Source of the DNA: a bacterium
GTDB lineage: Bacteria > Vulcanimicrobiota > JABDET01
Direction: 5' to 3'
Assembly: GCA_021800275.1 (NCBI GenBank)
Contig: JAJYZB010000005.1
Location: 1 to 64,000, forward strand
DNA: 64,000 nucleotides
A program made the translations under genes and the position numbers. This document shows positions 35,164 through 64,000 of the stretch, piece after piece (within the stretch, counting starts at the first letter, position 1; the number at the start of each line of letters is the position of its first letter). Below the pieces are notes generated by a model that ran no database searches, was not told the origin of the DNA, and was given only the letters and a program-made list of their open reading frames with translations.

Positions 35164-36567
35164 TTATAATATGTATCGAGAGAGCTCTTGATCTTTCACC
35201 ACTTTTTCAAGTTTTTCTTTAACATATCCCGAATCAATGTGAATTTTTAAACCCCGTTTTTCAGGAGCATCAAAACTTAAATCTTCTAGAAGTTTTTCCA
35301 TGATAGTATGTAGCCGCCGCGCGCCAATATTTTCGGTTTGCTGGTTTACAAGGGCTGATAAGCGTGAAATTTCAGAAATCGAATCAGACTCGAATTCCAC
35401 CTCAATTCCTTCAGTTGCGAGAAGAGCAGTGTACTGCCGAATAAGGGAACTGCGCGGTTCAGTTAGAATTCTTTTGAAATCTTCTTCGGTTAAACTTTGA
35501 AGCTCTACCCGTATAGGAAATCTTCCCTGGAGTTCAGGGATTAAATCTGAAGGTTTTGAGGTATGAAAAGCCCCTGCAGCAATGAAAAGTATATGATCGG
35601 TTTTAACAGGACCATATTTTGTCATAACAGTGGTGCCTTCCACAATGGGCAAAATATCTCTCTGCACTCCTTCCCGCGAAACATCGGGTCCATGTCCTCT
35701 TTCTCTTCCCGCGATTTTATCAAGTTCATCAATAAAAACGATCCCATTCTGTTCTGCTTTAGCGACTGCTTCTCTTCTTACTTCATCATTATCAATCAGT
35801 TTTTGAGCCTCTTCCACCGCTAGAATCCGTTTGGCTTCCGCAATTGTGAGTTTTCTTTTTCTTTTTTTCTTGGGAAGCATTCCTCCTAACAGATCTTGAA
35901 AATTGATACCCATTTCCTCCATTCCCGCAGGGCTGAATACTTCAATGATGTTAGACATCGCGTCTTCCACTTCGATTTCGATCTGCTGCTGATCCAGTTC
36001 TCCTGTAGAAATTTGTTTTTTTAAAATTTCTTTCTGCTGCTCGTAAGCCGGATCATGTGGTTCTTTTTCGTTTTCCTGGGAAACCTGCTGCGTTCCGCCT
36101 AAAAAGGTCAGAAATGGATTTATGATAGGAGTTGTTTCTTTTTTTGATTTAGGGTGAAGCAGAAGCGCGATTCTCTCAACCGCTAGCGTCTGGGCTTTTT
36201 CTTCCACTTCTTTCATCCTCGCTGATTGATTCATTCGAATGGCTATTTCAATGAGATCCCTGATCATGCTCTCCACATCTCTGCCCACATATCCTACTTC
36301 AGTATATTTTGTGGCTTCTACCTTCAAAAAAGGAGCATCAACCAGTTTTGCCAATCTACGCGCGATTTCTGTTTTCCCAACTCCTGTTGGTCCGATCATT
36401 AAAATATTTTTTGGGATGACCTCGTCTTTTAGATCGGGATCAAGTTTTTCTCGACGATAGCGATTGCGGATTGCCACTGCAACCGCCCTTTTAGCCTCTG
36501 ATTGACCTACAATATATTTATTTAGCTCTTCAACGATTTTTTTGGGCGTTAACTCTTGTTTGTTCAT
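35164..36567 (-). CDS. hslU: HslU ATPase of the HslUV protease
   Basis: This 467-residue AAA+ unfoldase is complete. Walker A is [20 protein letters not shown], the pore loop is in [20 protein letters not shown], the intermediate domain spans about 110-250, Walker B is [13 protein letters not shown], and the sensor region includes [12 protein letters not shown]. The C-terminus (LSRYIL) has the hydrophobic tail that inserts into HslV. hslV, normally adjacent and upstream, is absent: a kinase gene occupies that place and overlaps the hslU start by 38 bases. HslV must be encoded elsewhere or HslU acts alone. Confidence 0.95.
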
Positions 36568-39500
36568 TTTCTTTCGATTCTCCTTTGGGAAGAGTTAAAT
36601 AAAAGGTGGATCCGCTGCCAACCTGGCTTTCAACCCAGATTTTTCCTCCTTGAGCTTCAATTAATTTTTTTGAAATATAGAGTCCTAATCCGGTTCCTGA
36701 AACCAGGCGAGCTGCTTTTGAATCCACTCTATGGTATCGTTCAAAAATTTTTTCCAACTGATCTTGTGGAATTCCCATTCCTTGATCTTTTACGCTCAAA
36801 TATAAACGTTCTTTTTTTTCAGAGCCGGAAATTTCGATGATTCCACCTGTGGGTGAATATTTAACAGCGTTAGACATTAAATTATTTAAAACCTGTTCAA
36901 CCTGGTCTGGATCTCCATAGGCTTCTGGATAAGACTCGGGAAAATTTAAAGCGAATTTGTGATTTTGAGCAGAAACTTTAAACATTTCTACAACTCTTGA
37001 AGCCATTTCCTTTAAATTAAAAGGCATCATATGAATACTCAATCGCCCGGATTCGATCCTTGATAAATCTAAAAGATTATCCAGCAATCTTGCAAATCTA
37101 TCCATTTCAGAGTTGATGGCATTTAAAGAATCTCTTCTAAGTTCAGGAGTCAATCTTTCTTCAAATCTTAAAAGGGTGGCTGCATACCCCTTGATCGCTG
37201 TTAAAGGTGTTCTTAAATCATGAGAAACAATGGATAAGAAGTCATTTTTAGACTGTTCTTGTTTCTTTTCTTCTGAGATGTCGTGCAGCAGAATAACCCA
37301 GCCCAGAGGTTTGCCGTCAAAACTTTTTACAAAGGAATAAACTGAACGCAGGTGGGTTTCATCTCCTTCCCGAGCAATAATTCCTTCTTCTTTAAAGATT
37401 TCTTCAATCTCTTTCTTCGGGGTTTCAGGAAGGAAAATTTTGAATGTGCCTGCGATATTCTGATAAGCTTCCTCACAGGAAATTCCAATGACCTCATCTG
37501 CGTTTAAACCGGTTAAATTTTCAGCGGCTTCATTGACAAGAATAATTTTCCCCAGCGCGTCCAGAATAACGACTCCATCACCCATTTGATTTACAATGGC
37601 TTCCATTTTGTTTTTTTCAAGGAGGGCTTCATCATAAAGTCTAGCATTTTCAACTGCTACTGCCACATGATGAGCAAAAAGTCGAATGAAATCAATTTCG
37701 CCTGAGGTATAGGATGCGCTGGATTGTCTTCCAAGGGCAAGAAGACCAAAGACTCTTTCTTTCAACTGGAGAGGAACAAAAACGATACTTCCTTCATTCA
37801 TCCAGGGGACAATTTCTTCTTCAAGTTTTTCGATAGAAGAAAAGGGTTGAATTTTTCCTTCTTTGAGATTTTTTACAACCTCTTTTTTAAAATGGAGAAC
37901 TTCTCCATGAGCTGCTTTTGGAAATCCATAAGAAGCGGTTAAAGAGAATTTTCCCGTTTCATTTAACAGGGCTAGAAGGCAAAATTCGTGTCCCAGCAGT
38001 TCAGCCGACACTTTAACCAGATGATCAACTCTTTCTTTGAAATTCATGATAGAGGCAATTTCTGTGACAACAGCGTTTAAGTTTCCAAGTTCAAGTGAAT
38101 ATTCGGAACTTTCTTTGTATAGTCGAGCATTCTCAAATGCAAGAGCAAGTTGATTAGAAATATTCATCAGAAGATCTTGCTCTGAATCTCCAAGAGCATT
38201 TGTCACAGAGCTGGTTAAAGTTAAAATTCCTCGCACATTTTCCTTGGAGACTAGGGGAAAACAGTAAAGGGAGGAGATTTCGTTTCCCAGCAGTTTTTTC
38301 AGGTCTCGATGTTCTTCAAGATTATGAAACAAAATCGGCTTTTTATCAAGAAGTGTTTGAAATCGAGCTTTTTCTTTTGTGAGTAAAGGAATTTCATATC
38401 TCTGCTGCGTTTCAGCGCTTAAGCCGCGAGCAGCCATCAACTTTACTTTTCTTTCTCTCTCGCCTTCTATTTGATGAATAGCAATTGAAGAGATAGGGAT
38501 CGTTAAAATTTCTTCAATCTTATCCAGAGAAGTTCTTAAAATTTCTTCCAGATCAAGAGATTTCGAGAGTGAAAGGCTGAACTCATATAAGAATTTCATT
38601 CTATGGCTTTGTTTTTCGAGTTCTTGATAGGCTGTTTCCAGCTTTTTTTTACTTTTTTCTAAAAGATTGTGTTTTTTCTCCAGTTCTCGGGATTGATCTT
38701 CCAGGGTTTTATTTTGTTTCAGCAGAATTTGGTTTGACTTTCTTTCTCTATCATGCAGCAGAGCGTTTTCAATCACCAGGGCCGCCCGAGAAGCGATTAA
38801 CATTAAAGTTTTAATGTCATCATCTGAAAAATCTCGTTTTTTTGATATCATGCCGGCATTGATGATCCCGATCCTTCTTCCTTCTACCATTAATGGAACA
38901 GACAGCAGGCTTTCAACCCTTTCTAGAGGATCTGGAGGAGGCAGCCACTTGGGATCCTGACTTTTATCGCTGGTTGTGTAAGGCTTTCCAGTTTTCATAA
39001 CCCAGCCCGCTATTCCTTCACCGACACGCATTTTCTTTAGACTGAACGAACCTGGACCTCGGGAAGTTTTTAAATAGAGTTCTTTTTTTTCTTCATTCAA
39101 AAGGAAAATGGAAACTCTGTCAACTTTTAAAAGTCTGGCGACAATCTCAGTTGTTAACTCAAGCGCCTGATCTAAATTTGAGGTGGAGCTCAAAACAGCG
39201 GATAATTCATAAGCTGCCACTTCATAAAGGGTTGAAAGTTCTTTGATGCGCGCGTTTGAAATGTCCATATTTTGAATTCGTTCAATCGCCATGGCAATCT
39301 GGTTTGCAATAGTCATGTAAAATTCAATTTTTTCTTCCTGAAAGGCGTATGAATTTTTCGATTCTGCCAGGACCATTCCCATGGTTTGATGTCCAACAAG
39401 AGGAATGCAGCAGACTGATCCCGAGCGTTTTTTTATGTATTTCCAGGGATCAGAATTAGGAAGATGATTTTCGATCATGGGAACTTTTTCTTCTAAAGCC

Positions 39501-40168
39501 AGGCATCCTTTCAATTCTCCTTTTTCTGAAATGAGCTGACAGAAACTCTCTTTTTTCTTATCAGACATAAGCCAGATCTGTACTTTTTCGCAGTGAAAAA
39601 TTTTTTCAAGTTCCCTTGATAACTGCTCGATGAAAGCGTTTAAACTTACGTCTGCGGGGTGTGAGTTGACAAGAGCAGTGATGCGCATAATAGATGACAA
39701 TTCATTTAATTTTTCCTGTGTTTGAACATGTCCAAGACAGTCATCCAGGATGGGGGCAATTTCAAGGATCTTTTCCTGCATCTGTTTCACGCTGGTTTCA
39801 GAAAATGAAGTAAGAGAGTATCGGGCTGAAAAAACAACTCCGATCAGGCTGCGAGAAAATAAAATTGGAAAACAGATCGCGGATTTAATTTTTGTCAGGT
39901 TAAATGGAGGATTGAAACGAGGATCAAGTCCAATTTCATTCAAAACTAAGGGAGCCTTTTCCCTGGCGGTCCATCCCACCATTCCATCGCCAAGATGAAT
40001 ACGGGTTGTTTTCGTTTCTCCATGGATGCCGCGCAAAATCTTAGGGGTTAAAATTTCTCGCAGCGGATCAAAAAGAAAAACGACGGTCACATCGGCGTCA
40101 AAGAATCCTGCGCTTAAATCGGCAAAACCATTGAGAAGTTCTTCAAGGGATGGATGAGCTAATAACAT
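36530..40168 (-). CDS. multi-GAF, PAS-containing sensor histidine kinase
   Basis: I start this very large soluble kinase at the ATG at 40168 (GGAAGGAA just upstream; 1212 residues); the frame is open to 40246 but overlaps miaB. The order by eye is about five GAF-like domains (for example [40 protein letters not shown]) with a coiled coil in the middle ([20 protein letters not shown]), a PAS domain ([20 protein letters not shown]), then HisKA with the phosphoacceptor in [20 protein letters not shown], and HATPase ([29 protein letters not shown]). No membrane helix is visible, so it senses cytoplasmic signals. No response regulator is adjacent. Confidence 0.9.
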
Positions 40169-41486
40169 TTCCTTCCAACCCCCACGAGTATCCGTTTTTA
40201 ATATGAACCTTCTGCAGAGTTCCAATGATTTTTGGATTTCCATCAAAGACAGAGATTCGATTGGTCCTTGTTCTCCCTGTCAGGCGATTGATGTTTTTCT
40301 TTGAAGGTCCTTCAACAAGGACTTCCTGAATAGAGCCGACATACTCTTTGTTTTTTTTCTCAACCATCTGATTCGACAATTCAATTAAGAGTTGCAGTCT
40401 TTCTTTTTTTACTGATTCAGGAACTTGATCCTCAAATTTTGCGGCTTTTGTTCCTTCTCTTGGAGAATAAGCGAACATGAACGCTTGATCAAATTGTATT
40501 TCTCGATAAGCAGTTAGAGTTTTCTGAAACTGCTCTTCTGTTTCTCCAGGAAAACCCACAATTAGATCAGTTGTAATGCTGGCCGATGGAATGAGAGTTC
40601 GAATTTTGCAAACCAATTTCTTGTAATCTTCATAAGTATATCCTCTTCTCATTTTTTTTAAAATTTCATCATCTCCTGATTGAAGAGGAAGATGGAAGTG
40701 TTCACATACCTTATCAAGGGATGCAATTTTTTCAACCAATTCCAGTGAGAAATATTTTGGATGACTGGTAATAAATCGAATTCGATCAATTTTGTCAAGG
40801 CTGTTGATAAGAGCCAGCAGCTCGCTAAAAGAATATTCAGGTCCCAGGTCAAATCCATAAGTATTGACATTTTGTCCTAACAGCGTAATTTCTTTAAATC
40901 CATCTTCAGCCAGGTTTTGTATTTCTCTCATTAATGATTTTGGGTGACGGCTCCTTTGTTTTCCACGGACAAATGGAACAATACAGAAAGTACAGAATTG
41001 ATCGCACCCATAACTGATGGGAACAAACGTGAAAATTTCGCTCCGTCTTTTAACTGGAAGACCTTCTTCTTCCCGATCTTTCCTATTTGATAGTTCAAGG
41101 ATGGGTCCTTTTCCTGATCTTATTTCTTGAATTAAATAGGGAAGTCTTCCCTGTTTGTAAGTTCCAAGAACCAGATCCACATAAGGGAATCTCTCTAAGA
41201 ACTTTTTTCCATCTTTTTGGGACAAACAGCCTACGACTCCAAGAATTAAATCGCGGTTTTTACGTTTCTTCTCTTTCAGCTCTCCTAGTTTTCCATAGAC
41301 TTTTAAGTCCGCATTCTCTCTGACGCAGCAGGTGTTAAAAAGAATAAGGCTGGCTTCTTCAATCGTTGGAGCTTTAGCAAAGTTCATTTGATCCAATACT
41401 GCTTCTATAACTTCGGTGTCAGAGACATTCATTTGACAGCCATAAGTTTGAATATAATATTGTTCTTTTAATGTCAAGGCACTCAT
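40143..41486 (-). CDS. miaB: tRNA methylthiotransferase MiaB
   Basis: This 447-residue radical-SAM enzyme makes 2-methylthio-N6-isopentenyl-adenosine at tRNA position 37. The N-terminal UPF0004 domain has QTYGCQMNVSDTEVIEAVLD, the Cys of LFNTCCVREN and VVGCLSQKDG. The radical-SAM cluster is in YGCDQFCTFCIVPFVRGKQR. TRAM-domain strands close it (VLVEGPSKKNINRLTGRTRT). It overlaps the presumed start of the kinase gene by 26 bases. Confidence 0.93.
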   Translation of the reverse strand: MSALTLKEQYYIQTYGCQMNVSDTEVIEAVLDQMNFAKAPTIEEASLILFNTCCVRENADLKVYGKLGELKEKKRKNRDLILGVVGCLSQKDGKKFLERFPYVDLVLGTYKQGRLPYLIQEIRSGKGPILELSNRKDREEEGLPVKRRSEIFTFVPISYGCDQFCTFCIVPFVRGKQRSRHPKSLMREIQNLAEDGFKEITLLGQNVNTYGFDLGPEYSFSELLALINSLDKIDRIRFITSHPKYFSLELVEKIASLDKVCEHFHLPLQSGDDEILKKMRRGYTYEDYKKLVCKIRTLIPSASITTDLIVGFPGETEEQFQKTLTAYREIQFDQAFMFAYSPREGTKAAKFEDQVPESVKKERLQLLIELSNQMVEKKNKEYVGSIQEVLVEGPSKKNINRLTGRTRTNRISVFDGNPKIIGTLQKVHIKNGYSWGLEGNVISSSIP

Positions 41487-60609: not shown

Positions 60610-61521
60610 ATGTCCGCAAAAATGCAAATTGAAGCTTCTTCTGTTCCCCATGAATCAACTCGCCAACTTTTAAGTGAGTTAGTCTCTCATTTAAGAGAAA
60701 ATAGGCAGCAGCTGAGAGAAGAATGGGCAAGGAGAATTACTGAAGCAAAACTTTTAACCGCTATGACAAAAGAAGAGGTTTTTGCTGAAGCCACTTCTGT
60801 TTATGATAATTATGTGGAAGTTCTTGAAACTGGAGCTGTTGAAGCTCTGCAAGCTTATGCAAGAAATCTTTCTGAACGAATTATTCCCAGAGGGGTTCAA
60901 ACAGATGAAGTGGTTGGGATCGTGCTTCTTCTGCGAGATGTGCTTGCCCGATCTTTGTTTAAAAGGTATCAACATGATTTTTCTCTTTTGAACCGAGTTC
61001 TGGACGCTTATGAGCCTTCAGCCAATCGAATCGCGAATACGGTTGCCGTGGGTTTTGTGGAAGAAAGAGAAAGAATTATTAGACAACAACAGGAAGCGAT
61101 TAGAGAACTTTCAACCCCAGTGCTTCAGGTTCGAGAAAGGCTTTTGATTCTGCCTATCATTGGAGTGATTGACTCCCAGAGAGCAAAACAGTTGACAGAA
61201 CAGCTTTTAAGAGGAATTCGAAATAATCGAGCTCGGGTTGTTGTTATTGATATCACAGGTGTGCCCTCAGTTGATGAAAATGTGGCTAACCACCTGGTGC
61301 AAACGGTGGATGCTTCCAGATTGATGGGAGCGACTGTCATTGTTACAGGTTTGTCTTCTGTTATTGCGCAGACTCTTGTTACGATTGGTGTGGATTTAAG
61401 CAAGATCAATGCTGTAGGAGACTTGCAAGGGGGGATTGAAGAAGCTGAACGCCTTTTAGGGTATAAAGTCAATGCCACTCCTGAGATTCAGTCCCAGGGG
61501 GTGGATCTGCAGTCCAAGTGA
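60610..61521 (+). CDS. rsbR: RsbR-type stressosome scaffold protein
   Basis: This is 303 residues from the ATG at 60610; the GGAGGT upstream favours it over the frame's earlier start at 60562. The N-terminal helical domain (LVSHLRENRQQLREEWARRI, then RGVQTDEVVGIVLLLRDVLA) resembles RsbRD sensory domains. The C-terminal STAS domain begins RLLILPIIGVIDSQRAKQLT and contains VVVIDITGVPSVDENVANHL and ATVIVTGLSS, with threonines at the positions phosphorylated by RsbT in known RsbR proteins. It forms the core with RsbS. Confidence 0.88.
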   Translation: MSAKMQIEASSVPHESTRQLLSELVSHLRENRQQLREEWARRITEAKLLTAMTKEEVFAEATSVYDNYVEVLETGAVEALQAYARNLSERIIPRGVQTDEVVGIVLLLRDVLARSLFKRYQHDFSLLNRVLDAYEPSANRIANTVAVGFVEERERIIRQQQEAIRELSTPVLQVRERLLILPIIGVIDSQRAKQLTEQLLRGIRNNRARVVVIDITGVPSVDENVANHLVQTVDASRLMGATVIVTGLSSVIAQTLVTIGVDLSKINAVGDLQGGIEEAERLLGYKVNATPEIQSQGVDLQSK

Positions 61522-61552: not shown

Positions 61553-61909
61553 ATGCAAGTTCCAATTTTGAAGCAGGGTCCTTATCTTATTGCAACACTT
61601 CAGTCAGCTTTAAGTGATGCTGAATTATTGGATTTAAGGGACGCTTTGGCAGAACGAGTTGGCAAATCTCGATCTCGTGGTGTTATTGTGGATGTGACAG
61701 TTCTGGACGTCATGGACTCTTTTGCTGCCCGAACTTTGAGCGCTATCGCGAATATGTTGAGGCTGCGCGGTTCTGATACCGTGATTGTTGGAATTCAACC
61801 TGAAGTGGCGATGACAATGGTTGAATTGGGATTAAAATTAGATGGAGTAACCACTGCCCTTGATTTGGAGGAGGGACTTGCCTATTTTAAACGCGGAATC
61901 AGTGGATGA
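61553..61909 (+). CDS. rsbS: RsbS-type STAS antagonist
   Basis: This 118-residue single STAS protein has VPILKQGPYLIATLQSALSD, then SRGVIVDVTVLDVMDSFAAR and DTVIVGIQPEVAMTMVELGL. The serine in VMDSFAA matches the residue whose phosphorylation by RsbT releases RsbT from the complex. It is 31 bases after rsbR and overlaps rsbT. Confidence 0.92.
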   Translation: MQVPILKQGPYLIATLQSALSDAELLDLRDALAERVGKSRSRGVIVDVTVLDVMDSFAARTLSAIANMLRLRGSDTVIVGIQPEVAMTMVELGLKLDGVTTALDLEEGLAYFKRGISG

Positions 61910-62300
61910 AATTAGAGTGCCTATCCAGCGAGATATTGACATTATTTTAGCACGTCAGAAAGGAAGACATCTGGCAGCCCAATTAGGTTTTTTGGGCACA
62001 GAGGTTACCATGATTGCTGCTGCTATTTCAGAGCTGTCCCGCAATATTTTGAATTACGCGAAAGAAGGGGAACTGATTCTTAAAAAGGTGCAGAAATCCG
62101 CTCAGGTTGGCTTGGTTATTCAGGCCATTGATCAGGGTCCAGGGATTGCGGATATAGAGCAGGCTTTAAAAGATGGATTTTCAACAGGACATGGATTGGG
62201 TTTAGGGCTGCCTGGAACCAGGAGATTGATGGATGAATTTGAGATTCAGTCAGAAGTTGGAAAAGGGACGATAGTGACGGTGAAAAAATGGGTGAAATAA
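61878..62300 (+). CDS. rsbT: RsbT-type serine/threonine kinase
   Basis: This GHKL-fold kinase of about 140 residues phosphorylates RsbR and RsbS. ILARQKGRHLAAQLGFLGTE and AAAISELSRNILNYAKEGEL (N box), then AIDQGPGIADIEQ (G1) and STGHGLGLGLPGTRRLMDEF (G2), are clear. The start is uncertain: TTG at 61878 with GGAGGAGGG six bases upstream, GTG at 61902, or TTG at 61860. The overlap with rsbS fits translational coupling. Confidence 0.92.
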   Translation: MPILNAESVDEIRVPIQRDIDIILARQKGRHLAAQLGFLGTEVTMIAAAISELSRNILNYAKEGELILKKVQKSAQVGLVIQAIDQGPGIADIEQALKDGFSTGHGLGLGLPGTRRLMDEFEIQSEVGKGTIVTVKKWVK

Positions 62301-62938
62301 AACAAGGGAAGGTTATTGAGAAAAGAGTTGATTTTGTCGAGGTTAGCGCTGCCAGTTCAATTTTTCCAGGCGAGGTGGCCATAGGAGACTGTTTCATTGT
62401 GTCATTTTTCAAAGATGGAGTTCTTATTGGAGTCATCGATGGACTTGGCCATGGCAATGAAGCTGCTGTTGCGGCAAGAACCGCGTCTGATGTTTTGAGG
62501 TCACATGCGGAAGAGCCTATTATTTCTTTAATGAAACGGTGTCACGAGGCTTTAGTTAAAACAAGAGGGGCTGCTGTAACCCTGACATCTTTCAATTGCC
62601 GAGATCATACTATCACCTGGACTGGAGTTGGGAACGTGAAAGCTATGCTCCTGCATGTGGATGAATCTTTTCAACTGCATCAAGAGGATGTTCTATTAAG
62701 ACCAGGGGTTGTAGGGTACAATCTTCCTTTTCTGCGGGCTTCTATTGTCCCTGTTTATTACGGCGATTTGCTCATTGCGGCGACAGATGGAATACAAACA
62801 GATTTCAGTTCGGATTTTATTAAGAGTTTATTTATAACAGGAACTGCTGAAAAATCAGCTCAAATGATCTTGTCACGTTATAATAAAGGAATAGATGACG
62901 CTCTTGTTCTAGTCGCGAGGTATCTTGGGAATGCTTAA
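62288..62938 (+). CDS. rsbX: RsbX-type PP2C phosphatase
   Basis: This 216-residue PP2C/SpoIIE-family phosphatase resets the stressosome by removing phosphates from RsbR and RsbS. The metal-binding acids are in [35 protein letters not shown] and [15 protein letters not shown]. It has no sensory extension. It overlaps rsbT by 13 bases and the following kinase by 8, so the four genes form one translationally linked set. Confidence 0.9.
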
Positions 62939-64000
62939 TACAGTTTATCAAGAAGATCTGGCAAAAGTTTCGAATCGGTATAAATTTTTGCTCCAAAAAT
63001 ACATTGCCCATGAGGGAGAAGATGCCCTTCATCAAGTTTATGAACTTGGAAGATCGGCTCTTGCTCTTGGGAAAGGGTTTTTATTTTTATGCTCTATTCA
63101 TCATGAAGTTCTTGCTTCTGTCCTTGAACCCCTTAAGCATCCGACAGAAGTAGAAAAGGCGACTCTGCGCGCAAGAGATTTTCTTATGCACTGTCTTGCT
63201 TCTTTTGAAATGACTCACCAAGGCTTTCTTGAGGCAAATGCTTCTTTAATTCAGGCGAATAAAGATTTGTTTCAAAGAACAGAGGAATTGGTTAAAATAA
63301 ATTTAGAGTTGGATCAAATTGCTATTGAGAGAAAGCTGGCTGAAGAAAATCTCAGAAAAGAGGTCGTATTTATTGAGATACTTCAGAAAATTGCGGTTGC
63401 GGCAAATGAATCCCCTGACGTGTTCTCTTTGTTGAAAGCTGCTTTAGCGCAAATATGTTCTTATACAGGATGGCTTGCTGGCTGCGCTTTGACTGAGCTT
63501 TGTTACTATCATATCTGGCACTTCAGACAAACTGAAGAGAAACTTTTCGTGGATTTCTTTGAAAATCTGCGCCGGAGAAATCCCTTGATCTTTTCCGATT
63601 TGGGTTTGTTGTCAAGAAGACAGTTCTGGGTTCAGGATTTAACCATTGAGCCGGATTTTGCAGAAACGCGAAAAGATGCCCAGATAGAGATTAAAGTGGC
63701 GTTTGTTTTTCCAGTGGTGCAGAAAAGTAAATTGATCGCTGTTCTGACATTTTTCTCTCGCGACCGTTCTGATTTTGATTTTCGTTTCCTGGAAGTCATG
63801 AATTTAATCCTTGATCAGATTGGAAAAGCGGTGATTCGAATTAATCGCCAGAGATTAGAGCAAAATCAGTTGAAGACCTCTCTTCAAGAAAAAGAGTTGC
63901 TGCTTCATGAGATCCATCATCGGGTAAAAAATAATTTGCAAATTATTTATAGTTTGCTGAATCTTCAAAGTGATCACGTAAAAAGCAAGGAAGTCTCAGA
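62931..64000 (+). CDS. kinase with RsbU-like N-terminus, GAF and HisKA_2 (3' partial)
   Basis: The frame from the ATG at 62931 is open for 356 codons to the window end. Residues 1-75 ([40 protein letters not shown]) resemble the N-terminal domain of RsbU, the docking site for RsbT. A coiled coil follows (about 95-145), then a GAF-like domain ([20 protein letters not shown] to [20 protein letters not shown]). The end has the HisKA_2/HWE phosphoacceptor [20 protein letters not shown] (H at about 335). The ATPase domain lies beyond the window. It probably receives RsbT and passes the signal to a response regulator not seen here. Confidence 0.8.

Follow-up and report, generated by a model that had tools for sequence, protein, structure and literature searches.

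Signaling proteins that carry RsbU_N, the RsbT-binding domain of RsbU, have already been described next to stressosome genes, and with more than one type of output. In Heinz 2022 (PMC9237108), some of the proteins encoded downstream of rsbX carry this domain, with HisKA/REC relays listed among the outputs along with PP2C and cyclic-di-GMP. Baral 2025 (PMC12143880) modeled an RsbU_N histidine kinase, called NreB, and the same article covers both MtG of Moorella thermoacetica (RsbU_N-GAF-GGDEF) and the finding that RsbU, which has Gln at position 94, becomes active without RsbT upon the Gln94Leu change. For what lies at the other end of the locus considered here, the useful reference is Caulobacter DivL, which carries Tyr instead of the phospho-accepting His, works without kinase activity, and represents a transmitter turned into a response-regulator sensor (PMC4211667).

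The locus under study occupies the end of the window, i.e., the whole stretch of 64,000 nucleotides that was analyzed, and continues past it on the same contig (G000:C29), giving the gene order rsbR-rsbS-rsbT-rsbX-histidine kinase-REC-PAS-HisKA-HATPase. It resembles the rsbRSTX modules of Heinz 2022, as given in its available portion, and of Baral 2025 in that an RsbU_N signaling protein follows rsbR-S-T-X and the output consists of a kinase and a REC domain; it differs from the outputs described there in its HisKA_2 phosphoacceptor, accompanied by a probable GAF domain (PMC9237108, PMC12143880). MtG likewise belongs to a stressosome system and has GAF and an output domain after RsbU_N, but its output is a diguanylate cyclase. 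The features are as follows:

60610..61521, forward strand: rsbR, helical N-terminal domain plus STAS (Pfam; PDB relative RsbR 9o4h, E=8e-33)
61553..61909, forward strand: rsbS, single STAS domain (Pfam; PDB relative RsbS 6qcm, E=1.4e-25)
about 61902..62300, forward strand: rsbT switch kinase, likely GTG start (Pfam)
62288..62938, forward strand: rsbX-type PP2C (SpoIIE) phosphatase (Pfam SpoIIE, E=5.5e-9)
62931..64511, forward strand, running past the window end at 64000: docking histidine kinase, 526 aa from ATG
62976..63212, forward strand: RsbU_N docking domain (PF08673 over cut-off; AlphaFold2 model pLDDT 96; RsbU among the top fold matches)
63213..63360, forward strand: helical linker with Leu heptads (Leu108, 115, 122, and 129, counted from TTG)
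64508..65962 (L002:4508-5962), forward strand, beyond the window and next after the kinase gene: REC-PAS-HisKA(Tyr)-HATPase gene

The operon thus contains a full RsbRSTX module, namely the STAS proteins RsbR and RsbS, the HATPase switch kinase RsbT, and the PP2C phosphatase RsbX, in the order given by the first-pass annotation of this DNA. Pfam confirms all four genes, PDB relatives do so again for rsbR and rsbS, and the RsbRD_N match of the RsbR N-terminal domain is sub-threshold. The earlier description of overlapping genes throughout applies from rsbS onward, with overlaps of 8 (rsbS/rsbT), 13 (rsbT/rsbX), 8 (rsbX/kinase), and 4 bases (kinase/REC gene), and fails for rsbR and rsbS, which are 31 bases apart. 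The statement that RsbU phosphatase, RsbV/W, and sigma factor are missing agrees with our reading, as no rsbU, rsbV, rsbW, or sigma gene was found in the rsbR-S-T-X-kinase operon. A Peptidase_S49 gene situated ∼150 bases beyond the REC-PAS-HisKA-HATPase gene looks unrelated to the operon, and a scan for promoters and terminators returned site numbers about equal to those of shuffled sequences. Regarding the target sites of RsbT, RsbS retains the Ser of its MDSF phospho-Ser motif, and the two Thr positions of RsbR are occupied, in our residue census, by Ser (B. subtilis Thr171) and Glu (Thr205). The former position is Pro in 43 of 71 RsbR sequences, i.e., in most of the surveyed loci; Glu at the Thr205/Thr209 position occurs in two of the 71, and is the phosphomimetic used in Listeria (PMC12154155).

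From the N- to the C-terminus, the histidine kinase is composed of RsbU_N, a coiled coil, a probable GAF domain, HisKA_2, and HATPase. Its docking domain is genuine: the likeness of the N-terminus to the RsbT-binding domain of RsbU, first noticed by eye, was to be checked against PF08673, and this profile matches residues 18–96 (counted from the TTG at 62925) with E=2.4e-8 and 34.5 bits, above the curated Pfam cut-off of 25.5 bits, as expected for RsbU_N-containing targets of RsbT. The score is 33.0 bits on the complete 528-aa reading of the kinase. In place of the C-terminal PP2C/SpoIIE domain that defines the RsbU phosphatase, this protein has HisKA_2 and HATPase, which became evident once the gene was read beyond 64000, where a HATPase and a response regulator had been anticipated: HATPase_c (E=3.7e-11) and an overlapping REC-bearing gene are both there, and the HisKA_2 phosphoacceptor proposed earlier is secure (PF07568, E=1.6e-28). 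The HHRVKNN motif followed by the HATPase, with its N box and G boxes, is that of HisKA_2 histidine kinases, and NCBIfam gives PhyK, a HisKA_2 kinase, as the best partial match, with a score far short of the cut-off. Less firm is the GAF domain that had been assigned to the same protein. Judged from its sequence, the segment between the linker and HisKA_2 is probably of this type; GAF_2 scores 23.1, below the Pfam cut-off of 28.6, folding the stretch from the single sequence was uninformative (pLDDT 48), and the PDB gave one weak match to a sensor protein (E=0.14).

Structural comparison of the docking domain points in the same direction as the profile. An AlphaFold2 model of kinase residues 7–145, built with 60 related sequences, has a mean pLDDT of 96 and consists of three helices plus a fourth, uninterrupted one shared by the docking domain and the linker. 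The top Foldseek matches include RsbU (1w53, 2j6y, and 2j70) and the C-terminal domain of KaiA, with probabilities of 0.95–0.99 and E-values above 0.1, the latter being usual for short helical bundles of this kind. At the sequence level, the match to solved RsbU covers the domain but is weak (E=0.05–0.27). A profile search of the 2.46-Mb genome found a single RsbU_N copy, that of the kinase gene, and among 14 control genomes B. subtilis alone gave a match.

An RsbT alignment was scanned against genome contigs, yielding 80 loci that were picked by likeness to the RsbT of the window, and hence over-represent its kin and are not a census of bacteria. Within this sample, a docking profile built here detected RsbU_N proteins in 69 loci, one per locus and inside the rsb cluster, and none in the remaining 11. 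Their outputs comprise 56 kinases, six PP2C phosphatases, three GGDEF proteins, two with PAS only, and two cut short, so that the commonest output in the 80 sampled rsbT loci is a histidine kinase and not the textbook phosphatase/sigma-B cascade. The docking kinases, found in at least eleven named phyla, divide into 43 HisKA_3, 12 HisKA, and one HisKA_2, and 45 of the 56 have a REC gene or a REC hybrid immediately after them. When 18 docking proteins were checked with Pfam, RsbU_N was recovered in 17, over the cut-off in 15, with L046 as the exception without a match; their other domains agree with the script labels, save for a weak HisKA_3 in L090. In a tree of RsbT the output types are clustered, with too few columns to place the lineage of the window and with deep forks that are not firm. 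Two of the loci (L039:7980-9131 and L056:7944-9131) encode, in rsbRSTX operons, RsbU_N proteins with PAS only and no recognized output domain, and in an acidobacterial MAG (L101:7979-10513) rsbRSTX is followed by a single 844-aa RsbU_N-PAS-GAF-HisKA-HATPase-REC hybrid kinase.

These counts, together with the literature, bear on the novelty implied at first pass. The idea of a unique fusion was rejected, the arrangement being both published (PMC9237108, PMC12143880) and common (56 of the 80 loci have a docking kinase). Wiring a stressosome to a docking kinase is not a new principle; since Heinz 2022 includes HisKA/REC relays among the outputs (PMC9237108), the connection proposed earlier gains support as an inference. 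Three features of this locus are less usual, namely the HisKA_2 kinase, the neighbor with Tyr for His, and Leu at the linker position 94. The locus adds a HisKA_2 version and a pseudokinase partner to what has been described, and the survey adds the wide distribution and a contrast in the linker.

The comparison with B. subtilis RsbU, whose numbering beyond residue 86 is transferred from an ungapped alignment, reveals both likeness and divergence. The two proteins share the docking domain, a helical linker to the output domain, and Glu24, a position that is Glu in every surveyed docking protein covering the site. They differ in the output, which is a PP2C phosphatase in RsbU, and at Tyr28, Arg91, and Gln94, replaced in the kinase by His, Asn, and Leu, respectively. 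Tyr28 of RsbU is implicated in RsbT binding, and Arg91 pairs with Asp92 of RsbT. In the survey, Tyr28 and a basic residue at position 91 are present in most phosphatases and in all three cyclases, and not in the kinases. The RsbT of the window retains the equivalents of Arg19, Arg23, and Asp92, of which the two Arg are near-invariant across all output classes and Asp92 is conserved in most sequences.

At the equivalent of position 94, where Gln makes the RsbU linker labile, Leu is found in 56 of 58 docking kinases versus Gln in 5 of 7 phosphatases, a small and mostly Bacillota set for which ancestry is a possible confounder. In the window kinase, the residue aligned with Gln94 is Leu108 (counted from TTG), which begins the Leu heptads at 108, 115, 122, and 129. 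Leu at this position and the heptads indicate that RsbT may work otherwise on kinases than on RsbU, and the sequences suggest that the linker of docking kinases is a pre-formed coil on which RsbT would act by another motion. With this contrast, the model published for the activation of RsbU yields a prediction that can be tested across the whole class: kinases with Leu should form the coil without RsbT.

The product of the last gene of the operon has HisKA and HATPase_c domains over the Pfam cut-offs, intact ATP-binding boxes, and a REC domain with the expected Asp, Thr, and Lys. In its HisKA motif, FAYASAYELKEPLK, Tyr277 occupies the position of the phospho-accepting His, and the remaining kinase boxes are present, as in DivL-like pseudokinases. 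The likeness to DivL (PMC4211667) is one feature only, Tyr for His with the ATP-binding boxes kept, and no orthology is claimed; unlike DivL, the protein has its own N-terminal REC and sits in a stressosome operon. By analogy, it may be an allosteric end point. Tyr277 is known from one assembly and may reflect an error in sequencing or a change that arose recently. The closest parallel to the locus, L063, comes from a gammaproteobacterial MAG (BWOrgHeat_Nextera67_MAG1, JABDGC010000008.1), where rsbR-S-T-X are followed by RsbU_N-HisKA_2-HATPase and REC-PAS-HisKA-HATPase proteins whose kinase core and REC domain are 49% and 51% identical, respectively, to those of the window. Thus, the sole HisKA_2 among the 56 surveyed docking kinases also adjoins a REC-PAS-kinase gene, and the fact that so distant a lineage has this rare type beside a like REC partner supports the view that the kinase and the REC protein work together. 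L063 differs in that its docking kinase lacks GAF, and its second kinase retains a His box (GIIHEINNP) and carries one more REC at the C-terminus.

Taken at the level of sequence, these data make it quite probable that the four-gene stressosome module (RsbR, RsbS, RsbT, and RsbX) feeds a dedicated two-component relay in place of a phosphatase/sigma cascade. By analogy with known members of the family, an RsbR-RsbS core would hold RsbT at rest; under stress, RsbT would phosphorylate RsbS (and RsbR) and depart, and RsbX would reset the core. Once free of the stressosome, RsbT would most likely dock on the kinase and govern the transfer of phosphate to the REC encoded by the adjoining gene. As the domain match, the kept interface residues, and the common operon suggest, it would bind the RsbU_N dimer at the kinase N-terminus. 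Binding would alter the coiled coil, which connects via the GAF-like domain to HisKA_2, and so raise or lower autophosphorylation. Phosphate would then most likely pass to the REC of the overlapping REC-PAS-HisKA-HATPase gene, whose product, having Tyr and not His at the phospho-acceptor position, is probably an allosteric, DivL-like output rather than a second phosphate donor. In favor of this mechanism are the above-threshold RsbU_N as the sole genome copy, the uninterrupted series rsbR-S-T-X-kinase-REC, whose genes overlap from rsbS on, the kinase and partner REC residues, the survey linkage (69/80, 56 kinases, 45/56 then REC), the retained Glu24 and RsbT Arg19, Arg23, and Asp92, the helical model with its RsbU fold matches, and precedent (PMC12143880, PMC9237108). 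Against it stand the weak similarity to solved RsbU, Foldseek E-values >0.1, the loss of Tyr28 and Arg91, and a genus-mate without rsbT and RsbU_N. A bolder version has RsbT rotating or re-registering a stable Leu-rich coil in the kinases, where in RsbU it orders a floppy one, with the relay ending here in a REC-fused Tyr pseudokinase, a dead transmitter that senses whether its own REC is phosphorylated; this we regard as speculative and rather doubtful.

Other readings of the same genes differ in what RsbT does upon meeting the kinase. Being a Ser/Thr kinase, it might dock and yet act as an enzyme, shifting the relay by Ser/Thr phosphorylation of the kinase or its partner and not by coiled-coil allostery; phosphorylation is what Heinz et al. 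propose for loci without RsbU_N (PMC9237108), and a Moorella cyclase is described as phosphorylated by an RsbT homologue (PMC4976288). The presence of a docking domain argues instead for RsbU-like binding, and activation of B. subtilis RsbU needs no RsbT kinase activity, according to the title of Kang 1998 as cited in PMC9237108, which leaves the enzymatic route unlikely. The direction of signaling could also be reversed, the GAF-kinase sensing a signal of its own and RsbU_N titrating RsbT, so that the stressosome itself and not its output is tuned. The extra GAF-like segment would supply such an input, and RsbR is atypical in its Glu at the Thr205 position; however, a mere RsbT sink would have no need of the complete HisKA_2/HATPase and the REC partner that are conserved here and in L063, and we consider the reversal very improbable. 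Equally slight is the chance that the RsbU_N match is a remnant no longer binding RsbT in a kinase that is merely co-transcribed, as the missing Tyr28 and Arg91 and the weak similarity to solved RsbU might suggest, given that Glu24 is retained here and throughout the docking proteins covering the site, the profile score is above the cut-off, and the domain is kept beside rsbT in many phyla.

Within its own phylum, the window belongs to a minority, as RsbU_N occurs in only four of 149 genomes; of the three others, two encode docking kinases and the third a canonical RsbU, and one of these genomes is a MAG labeled Armatimonadetes by NCBI. Both rsbT and RsbU_N are absent from the one same-genus genome compared (G001). 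The notion that the genome has no other partner-switching parts was rejected: three other SpoIIE-type phosphatases (C6:16719, C22:32514, and C32:3825), all without RsbU_N, are encoded elsewhere, along with several stand-alone RsbW-like HATPase_c_2 proteins away from the stressosome, e.g., C28:315511, C9:24281, and C10:214567, likewise without RsbU_N, and it is possible that they form further partner-switching systems. Two more observations were made by eye. At 36530-40246 the window encodes a 1238-aa protein with several GAF-like repeats, PAS, and a histidine kinase core, and downstream of the operon, on the minus strand (L002:10762-14006), there are two adjacent long ankyrin-repeat-like proteins.
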